Shown here piece by piece: positions 25,307-37,473 of a stretch of 37,473 nucleotides of DNA. Where the stretch lies: NCBI GenBank assembly GCA_037178675.1, contig JAYMGJ010000428.1, positions 1 through 37,473 on the forward strand, given 5' to 3'. The stretch comes from Scleroderma bovista (Eukaryota; Basidiomycota; Agaricomycetes; Boletales; Sclerodermataceae). A program made the position numbers and the translations under genes. Position 1 is the stretch's first letter. Every line of letters starts with the position of its first letter. A model generated the notes under the pieces. The model made no database searches, had not been told where the DNA came from, and worked only from the letters and a program-made list of their open reading frames with translations.

Positions 25307-25446
25307 CCTTTACTAGGTATTGTACAGCAGTGGCTGGCAGGGTATGTGCCTTTGATATGGTGGTGGCACTCCTCGTACTAAGCTCAGTCGCCAGGATGCT
25401 TATGAACAGAACCGAGTGATCTCGGATACATGTCGAACGAACCGCT

Positions 25447-28030
25447 GTGACGGGGCCTGAAGGGAATATGGTCAGTCACGTTGTCCAGTATGATGATTGT
25501 AACGCACCGGTTACGTACCAAGTGTTGATAAACCACATCTTCGCCGAACATATCGGAATATTTATGGACGTGGATCTTGATGACACGATCATCTACTTAA
25601 ATACTCATGTTAAACATGTCACTATAGTGATCCAAATCCTGAGGAAAGAGGAACTGCACCTTAGTGAGAAGAAACTTCATTTCCTCCGCAAAGAAGTCAA
25701 GATACTCGGTAGCGTCGTCACAGACGACGGCATTCGAATGGACCCCGAGAGTCAACTGGAAGGACCCGACGAACCGCACCTCATGCAGAGGGTTCGTAGG
25801 AGCGGTGAGGATCTTGCAGACGATATCTATAAAGTCTATGCTCCACTTGGGGTATTAACCGAAGCCAGCGCTGAGTCGAAGCCTTTCCAACGGAGCTACA
25901 CCAGTAATGTGCGTTCGAGACAGTCAAGAGATATGTCTCGGCGTGTGCGCCCCACTGCCGTGTTCCTCTTGACTACGGTCCGGATTGTGACCCCATCTGG
26001 GTCATGACTGCCAACGCCTGTGGTAAATGGGATCGGGGGTGTTGTCGCTCAGGGCCGTGACTGGAAGGGTGCCAAAGTGGCCGCCGTCTATTCTGCAGAA
26101 ATGACGTCCACACAATGCAATTACCCTGTGCACAAGCAAGAATTAATGGCAGGAGTGTGGAGACCATGCTCCGCCATCATGATATCCTACAGGGTGTCAA
26201 GTTCACAGGGTGACAGATCAAAAGAGTCTGACTCACATCCTCGACCAGAAAGGACTGTCTGGGCGGCAGGCACGTTGGATGGAATGTTTGGCCTCGAAGT
26301 TTTGTATGTCCCTGGTGAGGAAAGTGTTTTACCGGATGCGCTATCTCGTATGTATGAGCTCGACGCACCTGGAATGACCTGGTTGCGCGAAATTATCTTC
26401 AATATGACCTGGACGTTAATGAAGTCGACTCGACACCACCGACTAGACTTATCACCGCACCCTTGTTGGTGCGATCGCACCGAGCGTTCGGCGCAGCCAC
26501 CGTCTGGCCGACAAGCACACCGAGCTCGCGTAACAGAACCAAGACGATCGAAGGCGACACCAACGCCTCTTGTGACGGAACCGACGCCCCCCGCTGGAGG
26601 GGGAGAAGACCTGCCTCCAACAGGACCAGTTGAATCTAGATCGCCCGAGTCAGTCGTGCATGAGGAAACGGCTTGGACACACCAACATCCAGCGCCGCCG
26701 GCAGAGAGCGGACGACCTGAGACGGGTGCCAAGCTCGCCACACGCATGCGAGAGCGGTCCGCTCTGGGGGACCCTCGTACAGAGAGGGGAATGGGTAGTA
26801 CCTCAACGGCTATACCTGAAAATGTCACAATGTCAGATATACCCGCCCCAGCTGAAAGGGAAACAAGGCGCGTAGCGCCGGTAACGTACCCGCATGATGA
26901 GTGAAGGGTCGATACAAGGAAGACTCGTTCTTTGAAAGGATATTAGAGACTCCAAAAACATTTAAGAATTTCTCACTTACAAATGATGCCTTCATACGCC
27001 TGAAACTGCACGACAGAGTTGTGATTTGTATCCCAAGATAGGTGAAAGAATGCCGAGGGGAATGATCATTGATCAGGCGCATTCACTGTTAGCTCATCTG
27101 GGATCAGGGAAAACGTTATCGTACCTAAGGGAGTACGTATGGCGAGACACCATGGTACACGACGTTGCCGCGTTCTGCGCTTCGTGTACGATCTGTCAAC
27201 GGAGTGAGCCTCCGAATCAGAAGCCGAACTGAACCCGCTGTCCGTACTGTCTACATCGTGGGACGCCAGATAGGTGTCGACTTTGTGGGAAGGTGACCTG
27301 GATCAAAGGATAGAGACGGATCGCATGATTCTATAACGGTGATAATGGACTTACTCACCGCGATGGCCATCTGGTACCGAGCCGAACAATGTATACTGCG
27401 AAAGACATTGTTGAGCTGATGTTGGCGGAAGTCTACAAACTTCACGGATTACCTAGAACGATCGTTAGCGATAGAGGCGTCATGTTTACGAGTCTATTTT
27501 GGACGCACCTTAACAAGCTGATGGGAGTTAAACAGCGCATGTCATCCAGAGGCTGACGGGACGACTGAGCGTGCCAACCGTACGATCGGACACATGCTGA
27601 GATCTTGCACTGGGCCTACCCCAGAAGGACTGGGTTTCGAGATTACCTGCCATCGAGTTTGCTATCAATCTCACCCGATCTGAATCGACCGGGTACTCAC
27701 CGTTCTTCTTGAGCCTAGAGCGATGATTTGGATGCTCCAAGTAGCGACAAGTTCCCGAGCGTAAAGGGTACGCGCAAAGGATGAAGCTAGCGTCGACGGC
27801 GGGACATGATGCGTTGTTGACAACGAGATGAAACAGACAGTACTAGTACTACTACTAACTTCAAGCAAGGCCGGGGAGACGCATGTGCCCGTTTGTTGTG
27901 GGCGATTTGGTCTACTTACATAAAAATATCACCTTGTTCACAAACAAGGTCACTCCCGAAGGAAATTGGACCGCTTTTTTTCGACATCCGCGAATCTGTT
28001 GTAGTTCGCTCTCCGTTTTAATCGAGCTAG
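25447..28030 (+). mobile_element. Ty3/Gypsy retrotransposon, degenerate internal region
   Basis: Order RT, RNase H, integrase on the plus strand. RT: 'VLINHIFAEHIGIFMDVDLD' DTIIY, where the usual Y-x-D-D reads D-L-D-D, then 'LRKEELHLSEKKLHFLRKEV' KILG. RNase H region: 'GGVVAQGRDWKGAKVAAVYS' with 'YVPGEESVLPDALSRMYELD'. A Pro/Arg-rich stretch at 26450-26900 precedes the integrase. Integrase zinc domain at 27026-27232: 'AHSLLAHLGSGKTLSYLREY' and 'CASCTICQRSEPPNQKP'. Integrase core at about 27410-27720 with 'YKLHGLPRTIVSDRGVMFTS' and 'GTTERANR'-like sequence; the tail (27880-27960) has 'VVGDLVYLHKNIT'. Many frame changes. Gag, protease and both LTRs were not found. Confidence 0.85.
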
Positions 28031-28088: not shown

Positions 28089-29890
28089 TCATGATACCTC
28101 TCTAGTTCTCTGAAATACATCCCATTCCTTCTTCGTTTGTCGATCTAACTCGGCTAGTCGATCATCCTCCTTCCGTAAATGTTCGTTGGGGTGCTGGGTA
28201 AACAACCCTTCATCAAAGTCCCGCAGAAGACGGATGCTGGATCTCCCACAACTTCGCGATAATGCGACATATGCGTTAAATGGTGTCAGTTGTCCTGACG
28301 GGGGTTTGGCGAGGTCGACAATGCAGTGGTCGATGGTTTGTGCTTGGGAGCGATAATCCGTGAATGCGTATGCTGGAGTAATGGGGAGCTGTTGTCTGGT
28401 GACTGTAACTTTCTTGCCGCTCCTGTTCACCACACTGAAGGACTTAGTAAGCGGGGTTATAGTGCGCACGAGTATATATGTGGGTGGAAATTGCAATTCG
28501 TACGTCTCGTTTTGTGTTGCGCTAATTTCTTCTCGAGCGTCAAGAACTATTTCGACTGTGTGCCCCCGGGCTCCGTTGGCAACATCCAAATCTGTCGAGA
28601 CGTTGATGGTTACCATCACTTCTATCCTGACTGCGATGTCCACCTCGTCAGCAAGACCCGTGCATTCCTGACAATTCTTCCCCTGCCCTGTCTTGGGTTT
28701 GGCTGCGACCGCAAATTTCTCTTCTAATGTTAATTGTTGACCCTGCACAGTATCGAAAGCCGGGCATTTGATGAGTGTAATGCCGAGTGCCTGCGTGCGG
28801 GTCTTAGTGGTCATGTTGTTTCACGTCATTCGAACGGCATGCTGCGGGGTAACCAGCAGTGCATCTTTCCATGGAGAGGTGATGAAATCGGTGATTGGAC
28901 AGTTGTCGTGCATTACAATGAGCTGGCGAAGCATGGCAATGTGTTTTTCGTCACAGTTGCCATGCCGGACATGCTGCAAGAGGTCCAACCATTCTGGATC
29001 TGTCACTTGAACTTGTGTTTTTAGGTGGACGACGGTGTCGAATTGTTCGTATAACTTCCTTCCTAACAGGTCGTTTTGCGTGTCCTTTGCTGGATTGCAA
29101 GGGCAATACAGTGCCGCTGATGGTTTGGTGGCCACGGGCGGGAATTGATGGAAATCGCCTACCAATATGACGTTGAGGCCTCTGAATGGTTCCTCGGATG
29201 CCATGCACCGGCTTTAGCGCGACTGATGATACAGGAGAGTTTTGCAAACATCTCTCGAGACACCATTGAGATTTCATCAATAATCAGGTAGTGTTTGTCT
29301 TTCCAGAACTCTTGCAATGCTTTGATTGTTTGTGCTGACTGCTTGCCTCCTCGCAATGGTATCATAGCTATCGAGTGTAGTGTTTTCCCGTCGATTATTG
29401 ATGCTGCCAGCCCGGTGTACGCTCCCTTGACCAATATGTTCCCCATGCCCCATGCCGCAAAGTTTTCAGTAATGGTTTGGATTGTTTTGGATTTGCCTAC
29501 ACCCGCTTCACCAGGTATGATCATTCGCATGGACTTAGGACACCTGCCACTAATAAAATTTTGCAGATGGCAGTCAATGATGTCGTATGCGCAACGTTGA
29601 TCTTCCAGGAGCTTATCCTACCCACGATCGGACATTCGCGAAGCTTTGAAGTAGACACAGAGTCGCTGACAAACGATCTCCCTTTCCCACGCACGCTGCC
29701 GCTCAACGTGTGCAACGGCGTTGCACATGTCTCCCGACACCCCGCCTCACACAACATTCCCACACAGCCTCTTAACAAAATTTTTCTTTGCCTGCCAATC
29801 TTCGTCCAACACCTCTTCGTGCATCGAAAGCTGACGATCTACCAGCACCCTATTGGCGATCTAGCTCCACCAGCCATTCGTCTTGGATGA
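28089..29890 (-). pseudogene. PIF1/Helitron-type DNA helicase, broken
   Basis: The minus strand reads, in order: 'HVERQRAWEREIVCQRLCVY', 'EDQRCAYDIIDCHLQNFISG', Walker A 'MIIPGEAGVGKSKTIQTITE', 'TLHSIAMIPLRGGK', Walker B 'YLIIDEISMVSREMFAKLS', then 'GLNVILVGDFHQFPPVATKP', 'STDLDVANGARGHTVEIVLD', 'YAFTDYRSQAQTIDHCIVDL' and motif VI 'FNAYVALSRSCGRSSIRLLR', stop at 28089. This is a superfamily 1B helicase like PIF1 and the helicase half of Helitron RepHel. A stop (TAG, about 29610), a frameshift near 29195 and a TGA at 28821-28823 (Trp expected) break it. No HUH Rep domain is seen, so the 5' end is lost at about 29890. Confidence 0.8.
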
Positions 29891-34650: not shown

Positions 34651-36001
34651 ACCTTGCTCATTTATCAATAGAGGGTTGCGATCGCAAATAGGATGCGCAG
34701 CATTCGGAACGCTTCGTCGGCCAGCTCATGGTTTGAAAGCATTATCTGTTCCATGCCGATGAATAGCATGGGCAGGTGAGGGCCTAGTACACTATATGAT
34801 CAAGTTATTGCAAGAGACCTCGACAGTAACAGAAACGTACCCCACGAACATGTAACATCTGAACGTTTTTTCCTTTTTTGGATCCAGCCATCCTGTGTTT
34901 TGGCTTAGTCATACTACCTCTCCATCACTAAGGGCTTCAGCTTTGCTTGCATTACCCTCGGGCCATCGCCCTTCGTCTCTGCATCAAGTTCTCTTAATCA
35001 TCCTCTGCAAGTAGCCCTTCGCTTACTCGATGTGTCCAGTTGATGATATCTGCACATTAGTACCGCTCAAGTCGGAGTCCGTCATGGTCATGCTGGTTTT
35101 GCGGCGGTACGTGCCTCAACCGTGCCTGTCGTCCCGGCGACTGTGACTGTGGGTACTAAGTATGTTGCGCCATGCTTTCTGCATCGTCACTAACTATGAC
35201 TTCGAAACGGTTCGTTGCCATCCAACCTTTTTCTCCGGCGAACTGTGATGTCGTTTGAACCTCCGCCGTGGCATCCATATAACGGTTAGTCGTCGCAGTA
35301 CGTGTCTACAATGAGTCGTGACTATACTTCCAGGTCTTCATACCAGCATGTATTTACATAGAGCCTGCCCTCCGGTTTTCGCTCGCTGTGACCAGTTGAC
35401 GACGTGCACGTTACCGCCGGGGGTGTCTACCTGTCATGCTATGCAGTACGTGTTTCAAATGTATCTGTCCTCGCCAGCGGTTGTGCCTCTGTTAGTGGTA
35501 TATGCTTCATCGATTCTGTTATTAGATAATGATTCCATCCACTGTACATATTTCCCATTTTCCTTGAATGCCATTCGTTCCAATTGGGCAGATTTCCCCT
35601 TCGTCTCGCCTAGTACGCTACTACTTTCAATGGCTGCTGTTTAACTTTTGATCGCAGTGCAATTGACATCCACACCGGTTTCTTTGCTCACCGACAACTT
35701 TACACTGCACTTCCTGATAGCACTATACAAGAGTCACCGGGGTAGGGTACTGGCGTCACTTTCCTGGTGGCCGCTGATGCATGCCGTGGCCACGTCGTCG
35801 TTGTGCCGCCATGGCACTAGTCATGCGCATCACTTCGTCATCGCCATCGCCATCGTCATCCCATACACGTACCATCGACTGCTCACGCACTGTCGGAGTC
35901 CGAGTCGCGTCCTCTTGTATTACATAAACAGTTTGTTTCACTCTGCCACTGTGACTGCACCTCCACTAATAGTCAACGTTTCAACATTTCAACATTATAC
36001 C
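34651..36001 (+). promoter_or_regulatory. Upstream region of the H3-tail/zinc-finger gene with diverged internal repeats
   Basis: No convincing gene. A diverged direct repeat is visible: 35037-35120 (GTCCAGTTGATGATATCTGC ... GTCATGGTCATGCTGG ... GGTACGTGC) and 35391-35455 (GACCAGTTGACGACGTGC ... TGTCATGCTATGC ... GTACGTG). GTCGGAGTCCG occurs at about 35070 and 35893. Just before the gene, repeated TTTCAACATT leads to ATACCATGGC, a good fungal start context. Frames such as 35648-36286 run through but become meaningful only at 36002. Confidence 0.4.
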
Positions 36002-37473
36002 ATGGCCCGGACTAGACAGACCGCCAAGAAGACTGCATCAGGTACCGCGCCGCGAGTCCGGTTAATTGTACGCCCTCCTGGCGCCACTGGGTCTGGCAGC
36101 ATCAAGAAATTGGAGAGAGATGTTTCTATGGAGTCTGCCACCAGTCGCTCACTTAGCCCTTTGACTCCGGTCACTTCATCTCCAGCGCCGACCATCAATG
36201 ATGCCATGGATACTGTGCTGGACGTGACAGAAAACCATGAACGCTGGCTAGCCAGCAACAAAGTAAATCTCTTATTCATTACATAGCATTCAAAGGCTCA
36301 CTCCGTTTTATAAGTACTGCTATCTTTGTCACAATGGTGGAAGTTTCCTTTGCTGCTGCACTCATTGTCCACGGGTAGTATGCGACCGTTGCCTAGGAAT
36401 TACGGAACAGCTATCCAATCAAGTCTGCTCACCAGACATCCAGTTCAAGTGTCCTGGGTGCCACGAGATTGGGGACCGTATAGCAAAGAGAAAACCGACA
36501 CCTTATTTCGTGAGTATTCGCTCATTAACCCATTAATAAGGCTAACCTGGAGCCAAGGCATTCACACGCAGTGTGGATGGAAGTGTCATTAGTGTTCTCG
36601 ACAAACCGACTATTGTTCAAGGCGTCTGTGAAAGATCATCAAAGTCCCAGGTCAGCGCCGAGTCAATCCTCATTCTGCATCTAATTTGCACGGGTATGGA
36701 TCCTCGAGGAGCTCTCCCCTTCCTCCTCAAGACTGCACTTGAAGACTACCACACCACGGAGTCGCTCGTTTACGAGGAGGTGACTTTTGACTTCGGGACC
36801 GAACAAAAACTCAGTCGATGGAGGGACAAGGTCCGCAAGCTCGGCACGACGCTGAATGCATGCAACTTTGCTCGAAAAATAATCTTTGTGACGGTCCACA
36901 GTGAGCTGACACGCGGTGATCTATTTGCGGGGAAGGACGAAGACGGAAATGATGTGACGGCGGAAGTCGAGGATGTGAGCATTAAATCAATCCATCTTGC
37001 TGTTTCACCGATTTGTTGTCAGTTCATGACCTGTTTATTCAGCTCCCCCCTGGAAGATACCATGTATGCCTCCACGCTTTTCATGCTGACGTGTGGGCCA
37101 CTGGTCACATTTCAAGAGTCTTTGTTGACATTGAAGAAATCCATCATCCGGTAAGTAAGCTATTATTGGTTTACTTGGATTTTACTGACTATGTCCGGTA
37201 GTCTACAGCCAGAATATACGATTGCGTTCACTCGAACGCACTTCATCAGCGCCGCCCTCAAATTATTTATCGTGGCATATGGCATACAAGTGCTTATTGA
37301 AGGCCACGTCTTAGCGGATGTCCTGCAAGACCTCCTCAATGCTTCACTTGACCTACGTATGCACAGTGACGTGCTGCTATTCCATGTACAGGGGCTTCGG
37401 TTGTCAAATTCGGTGCTGTCTTTGCTGTCCAAGTCTGTACCATCCATCATCTCCCCCTCCATTGTCGGCTACA
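36002..37473 (+). CDS. Histone H3 tail-like N-terminus + four-CxxC zinc finger protein, partial
   Basis: ATG 36002. Exons 36002-36262, 36315-36509, 36558-36974, 37023-37150 and 37202 to the window end join in frame with 48-52 nt GT-AG introns. Residues 1-18 are MARTRQTAKKTASGTAPR, close to the H3 tail: after Met, A1 R2 T3, Q5 T6 A7, K9, G13, A15 P16 R17 are shared, K4 is R, R8 is K, S10 is T and K14 is T. A basic/Ser-rich linker follows. Exon 2 has C89-x2-C92, C102-x2-C105, C110-x2-C113 and C133-x2-C136 ('YCYLCHNGGSFLCCC', 'CPRVVCDRCLG', 'FKCPGCHE'), a PHD/FYVE-like finger. Exons 3-5 form an alpha/beta domain ('AESILILHLICTGMDPRGAL', 'YEEVTFDFGTEQKLSRWRDK', 'GDLFAGKDEDGNDVTAEVED', 'DTMYASTLFMLTCGPLV'). 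The first-exon frame has no damage. Similar uncharacterised proteins are numerous in agaricomycetes. Likely nuclear; inferred role is in histone-mark reading or decoy binding. Confidence 0.8.

Follow-up and report, generated by a model that had tools for sequence, protein, structure and literature searches.

Why should a fungal gene open with what reads like the N-terminus of histone H3? The question is raised by a gene at the end of a 37,473-nucleotide stretch of the Scleroderma bovista genome (hereafter the window), which is the whole of contig C428. Its ATG at 36002 on the forward strand opens the H3-like tail MARTRQTAKKTASGTAPRVRL (codons 1-21, 36002..36064), as read directly from the DNA. 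A previous sequence-only reading had stated that A1, R2, T3, Q5, T6, A7, K9, G13, A15, P16, and R17 of H3 are kept and that K4, S10, and K14 are changed to R, T, and T. Both statements are borne out by the tail, in which R8K, T11A, and G12S, unmentioned there, are also present. The four-CxxC finger that it had placed behind a linker is found in the next exon. The region 36002-37473 is not a single open frame but several exons, and the gene runs off the contig end. We took the missing 3' end from contig C104, which is 100% identical to the window over 2556 bases (34918..37473). The full protein of this C104 copy has 512 residues without an internal stop, in agreement with the earlier view that the gene is intact. 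It comprises, in order, the H3-like tail, a linker, a PHD-type finger, a predicted caspase/CHAT domain with a His-Cys pair, and a Cys-rich end. Three features escaped the sequence-only reading: the predicted caspase-like domain, how large the family is, and the link of one of its branches to transposons.

The resemblance of the tail to H3 is very unlikely to be an accident, a reading that we reject on pattern counts, conservation, and synonymous-rich divergence. Searched with a DNA pattern encoding M-A-R-T-x-Q-T-A, the 51.8-Mb genome yields 14 matches; the reversed control yields none. Three matches are H3 starts (C119, C385, and C477; histone-fold sequence is visible behind the one on C477, and at the other two the start alone was read), and the other 11 are members of the tail-finger family. 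All 11 of these exact-tail copies have an H3-type reader finger behind the tail. The branch comprising C74, C127, C252, C324, and C491 reads MARTKQTAKKSSGGKAPRAEI, which agrees with the host H3 start at 14 of positions 1-17. The scanned family proteins have no Pfam histone match, and what lies behind their tails is the finger and the caspase-like domain, not an H3 fold.

To describe conservation, we pooled the tails of 53 of the 134 database proteins with those of the genome's own copies, which gave 54 distinct tails. As they were chosen by score with a cut-off of 30, which excluded P0116 (MARTKQTGETAK, score 25), the following percentages describe recognisable tails. The H3 residue is kept at A1 in 96%, R2 in 91%, T3 in 93%, K4 in 74%, Q5 in 91%, T6 in 78%, A7 in 89%, R8 in 30%, K9 in 80%, S10 in 19%, T11 in 61%, G12 in 35%, G13 in 81%, K14 in 15%, A15 in 98%, P16 in 54%, and R17 in 74%. 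The K4R change of the window gene is thus a minority state in the family. H3K9 methyltransferases of the G9a type require R8. With R8 so rarely kept, the suggestion that the tail serves as a K9-methylation decoy is unsupported as a general property.

The tail is also under selection. Between the window gene and its paralogs on C1, C344, and C271, codons 2-8 show 0.86-1.06 changes per synonymous site and 0.07-0.13 per non-synonymous site, on small counts: each pair has 5-6 synonymous and 1-2 non-synonymous changes. Non-synonymous divergence in the same pairs is 0.35-0.51 in the linker and 0.23-0.24 in the caspase-like domain. Three pairs without the window gene give 0.19-0.58 synonymous and 0-0.06 non-synonymous changes in codons 2-8, and R2 is encoded by five different codons. 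With synonymous sites in codons 2-8 close to saturation in the window-gene pairs and amino-acid changes few, we consider this stretch to be under selection. By this codon comparison, residues 1-7 are firmly constrained and those behind them less so. A functionless relic could be read from the decayed tails of some branches (MARTKCTARKLFG, MA*T), from their stop codons, and from the closest pairs (C104a/C104b and C196/C344), each of which has one amino-acid change and no synonymous change in the tail. The synonymous-rich divergence between distant paralogs, the conservation in Pisolithus, Scleroderma, and Suillus, and the finding that every one of the 14 pattern matches is H3 or a family member speak against a relic or an accident, which we find hardly credible. 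Selection on the tail and relatives in three genera instead uphold the earlier proposal of an H3-tail mimic.

The finger of the window gene (YCYLC..CTHC..CDRC..CPGC) is encoded by exon 2 (36315..36509, forward strand; YCYLCHNGG...CPRVVCDRC...FKCPGCHE) behind a 52-base intron. In an alignment of 14 fingers picked by hand, the eight Cys columns (C2, C5, C15, C18, C23, C26, C46, and C49) are invariant, and they follow the CxxC - CxxC - (H/C)xxC - CxxC order and the spacing of PHD/ADD zinc ligands. The finger profile significantly matches the fingers of CHD4, AIRE, ZMYND8, SP140, and TRIM24/33 and the ATRX ADD, and weakly that of PHF21A (E 0.04), all of which share the layout CxxC-DGG-C-CPR-C-C-CxxC. 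These fingers bind the H3 N-terminus and prefer unmodified K4. The profile thus agrees with the previous assignment of the finger to the kind that reads H3 tails. The family differs from classical PHD fingers in that its fifth zinc ligand is Cys instead of His, and in that it has its own H3-like tail in cis. The best profile match in the PDB is 3a1b, an H3 tail fused to the DNMT3A ADD, and the alignment spans both tail and finger. Pfam and NCBIfam scans of family proteins gave no family above cut-off. The best match below it, to CK_II_beta in the P0127 finger (E 5.4e-4, 20.2 bits with a cut-off of 27), was rejected since it looks like a common zinc layout. Two long gene models, P0082 and P0097, carry a precomputed PF21936 annotation.

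The region behind the finger is predicted to adopt a caspase-haemoglobinase fold, as judged from fold searches with the AlphaFold model of homologue P0019. The first part of this domain is encoded by exon 3 (36558..36974, forward strand), which contains the codon of candidate catalytic His266 (36897-36899). The codon of candidate catalytic Cys315 (37092-37094, in the motif LTCGP) is in exon 4 (37023..37150). In the predicted fold, the two residues sit at the ends of strands 3 and 4, respectively. Across 107 aligned rows, the His is present in 105 of the 105 that cover its column, and the Cys in 86 of 89. The VIA-align fold list contains no PHD finger, but one domain filled the list, so that it is uninformative on the finger.

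We then asked how widely the architecture is distributed. The family is multicopy in the Scleroderma bovista genome and also occurs in Pisolithus, Scleroderma citrinum, and Suillus, the last belonging to a different suborder of Boletales from Scleroderma and Pisolithus. The window protein as query gave at least 72 proteins, and a profile, for which 7994 candidates were scored, at least 99 among the matches listed, the named ones being from Pisolithus, Scleroderma citrinum, and one Suillus. A search with the Suillus protein yielded 14 among the matches listed, namely nine named Suillus proteins, an unlabelled one, and four Pisolithus proteins already found. The Suillus tails include MARTKQTAPKSTGGLAPRK and MARTKQTALSSCGGTAKRV, and Scleroderma citrinum P0015 has the tail MARTKQTAGRTTCGIAPRVQC. 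In a 48-row tree, the family divides at depth into two sides (100/99); the root is the midpoint only, and the tool warned of long branches that meet. Suillus and the C74 branch fall on one side together with a second Pisolithus group, and the window gene falls on the other with the remaining Pisolithus rows. The tail is likely ancestral because it is present on both sides, and tail, finger, and His-Cys pair co-occur in both.

Tail and finger do not always come together. Aside from the window, 28 finger loci of the genome were inspected upstream: 15 have a clear tail, nine have a divergent or decayed one, and four have none (C294, C139, C815, and C383). The nine were judged to be tails by eye, on their start and position, and their scores of 13-38 overlap with chance matches, which reach 33. 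A complete finger is present in 40 database proteins, and 29 of these have a tail by score. The other 11 include five that begin at or just before the finger, P0002, which is cut within the tail, P0045 and P0116, whose recognisable tail starts score below the cut-off, and P0003, P0005, and P0075, which lack a tail start. The sequence-only reading had held that homologues lacking the tail would count against it. Such homologues exist, but among 35 proteins with a complete finger and enough N-terminus, 32 have a tail start and three do not. Over all 134 database proteins, 81 have no tail at the cut-off, and 70 of these lack both tail and complete finger. One group of paralogs (C30, C59, C7, C112, C568, C681, C439, C21, and C139; loci L021-L025, L030, and L044-L046) has decaying tails, with Q5 changed to Cys and early stops (none seen in C139), and Ser replaces the candidate Cys in C139 and C681. 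Five of its members, C30, C139, C439, C681, and C568, form one long-branch clade in the tree. This group is possibly a pseudo-protease or a dying branch.

One branch of the family is likely linked to transposons. C74 and C127 share a segment of more than 16 kb at 99% identity, rising to 100% around the tail gene. Pfam matches in this segment are to a KDZ transposase at E 1e-34, to CxC2 at E 6.2e-27, and to Tet_JBP at E 1.3e-13. The tail gene and the TET gene are divergent and 3.2-3.5 kb apart in six of nine C74-like members (C74, C127, C252, C324, C491, and C144); C1b, C15, and C383 lack this layout. A random point of the genome has a TET match within 5 kb about 3% of the time, among the matches listed. 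Four of the six linked loci are near-identical, so that the independent cases number about three. In both the C74 and the C127 copy, the right end reads ...CACCTG before unrelated flanks, which is in line with the CA..TG ends given for Kyakuja elements (PMC12730594). By these sequence features, the C74-branch copies likely lie inside a transposon; of its two ends and a 7-bp target duplication, it is the right end that was found. Beyond the C74-like branch, none of 21 members, the window copy included, has a TET within 10 kb among the matches listed. The matches listed likewise include no Tet_JBP, CxC2, or KDZ on C428, where the gene lies at the contig's end, and no TET on the 84-kb contig C104. 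On these listed matches, we reject the window gene as KDZ cargo. In the whole genome, there are at least 150 Tet_JBP, 143 CxC2, and 166 KDZ matches; this is a very large load of KDZ elements, many of them likely with TET. Tandem repeats of about 70 bases lie within 1.2 kb upstream of the C74 tail gene (28829-29368, L033), part of which C252 apparently lacks. Downstream of that gene, in the same repeated segment as above (C74 32400-36000, L058), are Glu/Arg-rich open frames, and the two that were scanned have no Pfam match.

How might tail, finger, and caspase-like domain work together? Self-recognition is the simplest reading, given the type of finger, the tail, and the fact that one chain carries the two in both deep branches. 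We propose, at slightly less than even confidence, that the finger holds the tail of its own protein and thereby gates the protease, until unmodified H3 outcompetes that tail. Once the start Met is removed, the free Ala1-Arg2-Thr3-Lys/Arg4 end would sit in the H3 groove of the finger. The tail would dock in the same molecule as a latch, for which the spacing between tail and finger, 26-71 residues in 29 proteins, is long enough. Alternatively, it would dock in a neighbouring molecule, giving head-to-tail chains that bring protease domains together. Gating of the caspase-like domain is the most likely role of self-binding; binding, gating, and protease activity are all what we infer. In the KDZ/TET branch, the protein would act with DNA demethylation against silencing of the element. 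A bolder picture, which we consider unlikely as a whole, is that of a caspase-fold protease whose own H3 tail serves as its switch and which would found a new class of chromatin effectors. It would exist as latched monomers or as head-to-tail chains until unmodified H3 on chromatin displaces the tail and turns the protease on. TET+ Kyakuja elements would carry it as one of two anti-silencing arms, the one for histones, with TET as the one for DNA, and the host would have accumulated further copies.

A number of observations weigh against self-recognition and gating of a protease. The finger profile also matches MLL1 PHD3 (E 0.008), which is a K4me3 reader, and no scanned protein is above the Pfam cut-off for PHD, CHAT, or caspase. 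The window finger has HNGG (36330-36341, forward strand) where most have HDGG, and its tail has R4 (codon 5, 36014-36016) for K4. Loss of K4 and loss of the Asp in the DGG loop tend to coincide (27/3 versus 4/5, Fisher p 0.009, with rows that share ancestry), a covariation that is suggestive. The finger on C196 has lost one zinc ligand, and 24 of 53 tail-bearing database models have no complete finger match. As for the protease, Foldseek alone gave a single match below 0.001, C139 and C681 carry Ser for the candidate catalytic Cys, and Suillus P0116 lacks the Cys. Two AlphaFold models do not dock the tail; in both, residues 1-16 have a predicted local distance difference test score (pLDDT) below 50, and no strand forms at residues 1-7, so that docking finds no support in them. 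Codons 9-18 are less constrained, with non-synonymous changes of 0.23-0.34 for the window gene and 0.36-0.51 for the three other pairs. The retention of K9, G13, A15, and R17 beyond the usual PHD footprint suggests a further partner.

It is this last point that keeps alive, as a possible though not a likely alternative, a tail that lures the host's H3 readers, writers, and erasers, drawing them off chromatin or recruiting them to the protease; in the transposon branch, they could instead be recruited to the element. The near-identity of the C74-branch tails to the host H3 start and the TET/JBP and KDZ genes adjoining them fit a lure, and transposon-encoded anti-silencing is of a known kind (PMC12730594). 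The changes at R8 and K14, however, would spoil several writers and readers, and a lure alone leaves unexplained why a reader finger stands behind the tail in all 11 exact-tail copies. A built-in substrate or pseudo-substrate is decidedly less probable. Here the caspase-like domain would clip H3 tails, and its own tail would fill the active site or be cut on activation, as the conserved His-Cys pair on the predicted fold and a short DSSP bridge at residues 17-18 in both AlphaFold models, of low confidence, might suggest; yet the most conserved run, residues 1-7, is not an obvious cut site, and a few members have lost the Cys. Quite improbable, finally, is a ligand for a BIR (survivin/IAP) protein, to which the caspase-like protein would be held by its Ala1-Arg2-Thr3, exposed once the Met is removed, in the way that caspases are held through IAP-binding motifs. 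The survivin BIR domain binds the H3 N-terminal peptide, as PMC13040270 reports. A1 and T3 are almost always kept, which suits such a ligand, but the conservation extends to A7 and A15. BIR motifs need about four residues.

The chain has counterparts among known systems. The DNMT3A ADD fusion in 3a1b likewise has an N-terminal H3 tail followed by a PHD-type finger. We take 3a1b to be a laboratory construct, whereas the Scleroderma fusion is natural and has a predicted caspase-like domain behind. To our knowledge, histone mimics are mostly short motifs. A precedent for self-recognition is BAZ2B, in which a histone-like linker and H3 compete for the protein's PHD finger (PMC5663869); that mimic is a Lys-rich internal linker, and the one in Scleroderma is an N-terminal copy of about 18 residues. 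The predicted fold resembles CHAT and caspase-fold cysteine proteases (SAVED-CHAT 8tl0 and caspases), with the His following strand 3 and the Cys strand 4. Different from these, the family has no Pfam CHAT or C14 match, and its partner domains are of chromatin type, not TPR, SAVED, or NLR. A fungal TPR-CHAT protease activates a gasdermin (PMC12881547). The C74 branch shares KDZ, CxC2, Tet_JBP, and the TG right end with the TET+ Kyakuja transposons of Agaricomycetes, outside of which the window copy lies. By term search, the Kyakuja paper (PMC12730594) shows no such gene: zinc finger, PHD, and caspase are absent from it, and histone is mentioned four times, in other matters. No H3-tail/PHD/caspase protein was found in the literature, among openly licensed PMC papers. 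The family thus offers a natural, selected H3 copy of about 18 residues at the N-terminus of the same chain as a reader-type finger and a predicted protease, and a natural parallel to a chain that is otherwise known from a construct. With it, self-recognition by an H3 mimic becomes testable with one small protein and one peptide. It also points to a histone-directed gene likely travelling with TET-bearing transposons in mushrooms.

The window gene has five exons, the last cut by the contig end, and introns of 48-52 bases each. Exon 1 (36002..36262, forward strand as all that follow) encodes the tail and a Ser/Pro-rich linker in 87 codons. It is bounded by GT/AG splice sites, in an intron order common to the paralogs on C344, C196, C1, and C271, which have the same four introns. 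By gene model and paralog comparison, intron 1 spans 36263..36314, intron 2 36510..36557, intron 3 36975..37022, and intron 4 37151..37201. Exon 5 starts at 37202 and is cut at 37473; the C104 copy continues through the Cys-rich C-terminal stretch to the stop. A second copy on C104, about 96% identical over the unit, is also open, and its tail carries T3N. The paralogs on C344, C196, and C1 are open, the one on C271 has two stops, and C12 and C193 are identical to C1 wherever the sequences overlap. In the window's branch, this is a dispersed multicopy gene with several open copies. Its 2.9-kb unit has a left break that varies between copies, and no terminal inverted repeats were seen by eye in the portion of the alignment shown. 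As to the earlier remark that the neighbours of the gene are ruined, 20 of the window's 22 open reading frames of at least 170 amino acids were scanned with Pfam, and two matched. At 25420-26904, a reverse transcriptase match lies just above the Pfam cut-off, with RNase H models below theirs, in adjoining frames; this is probably a decayed retroelement.
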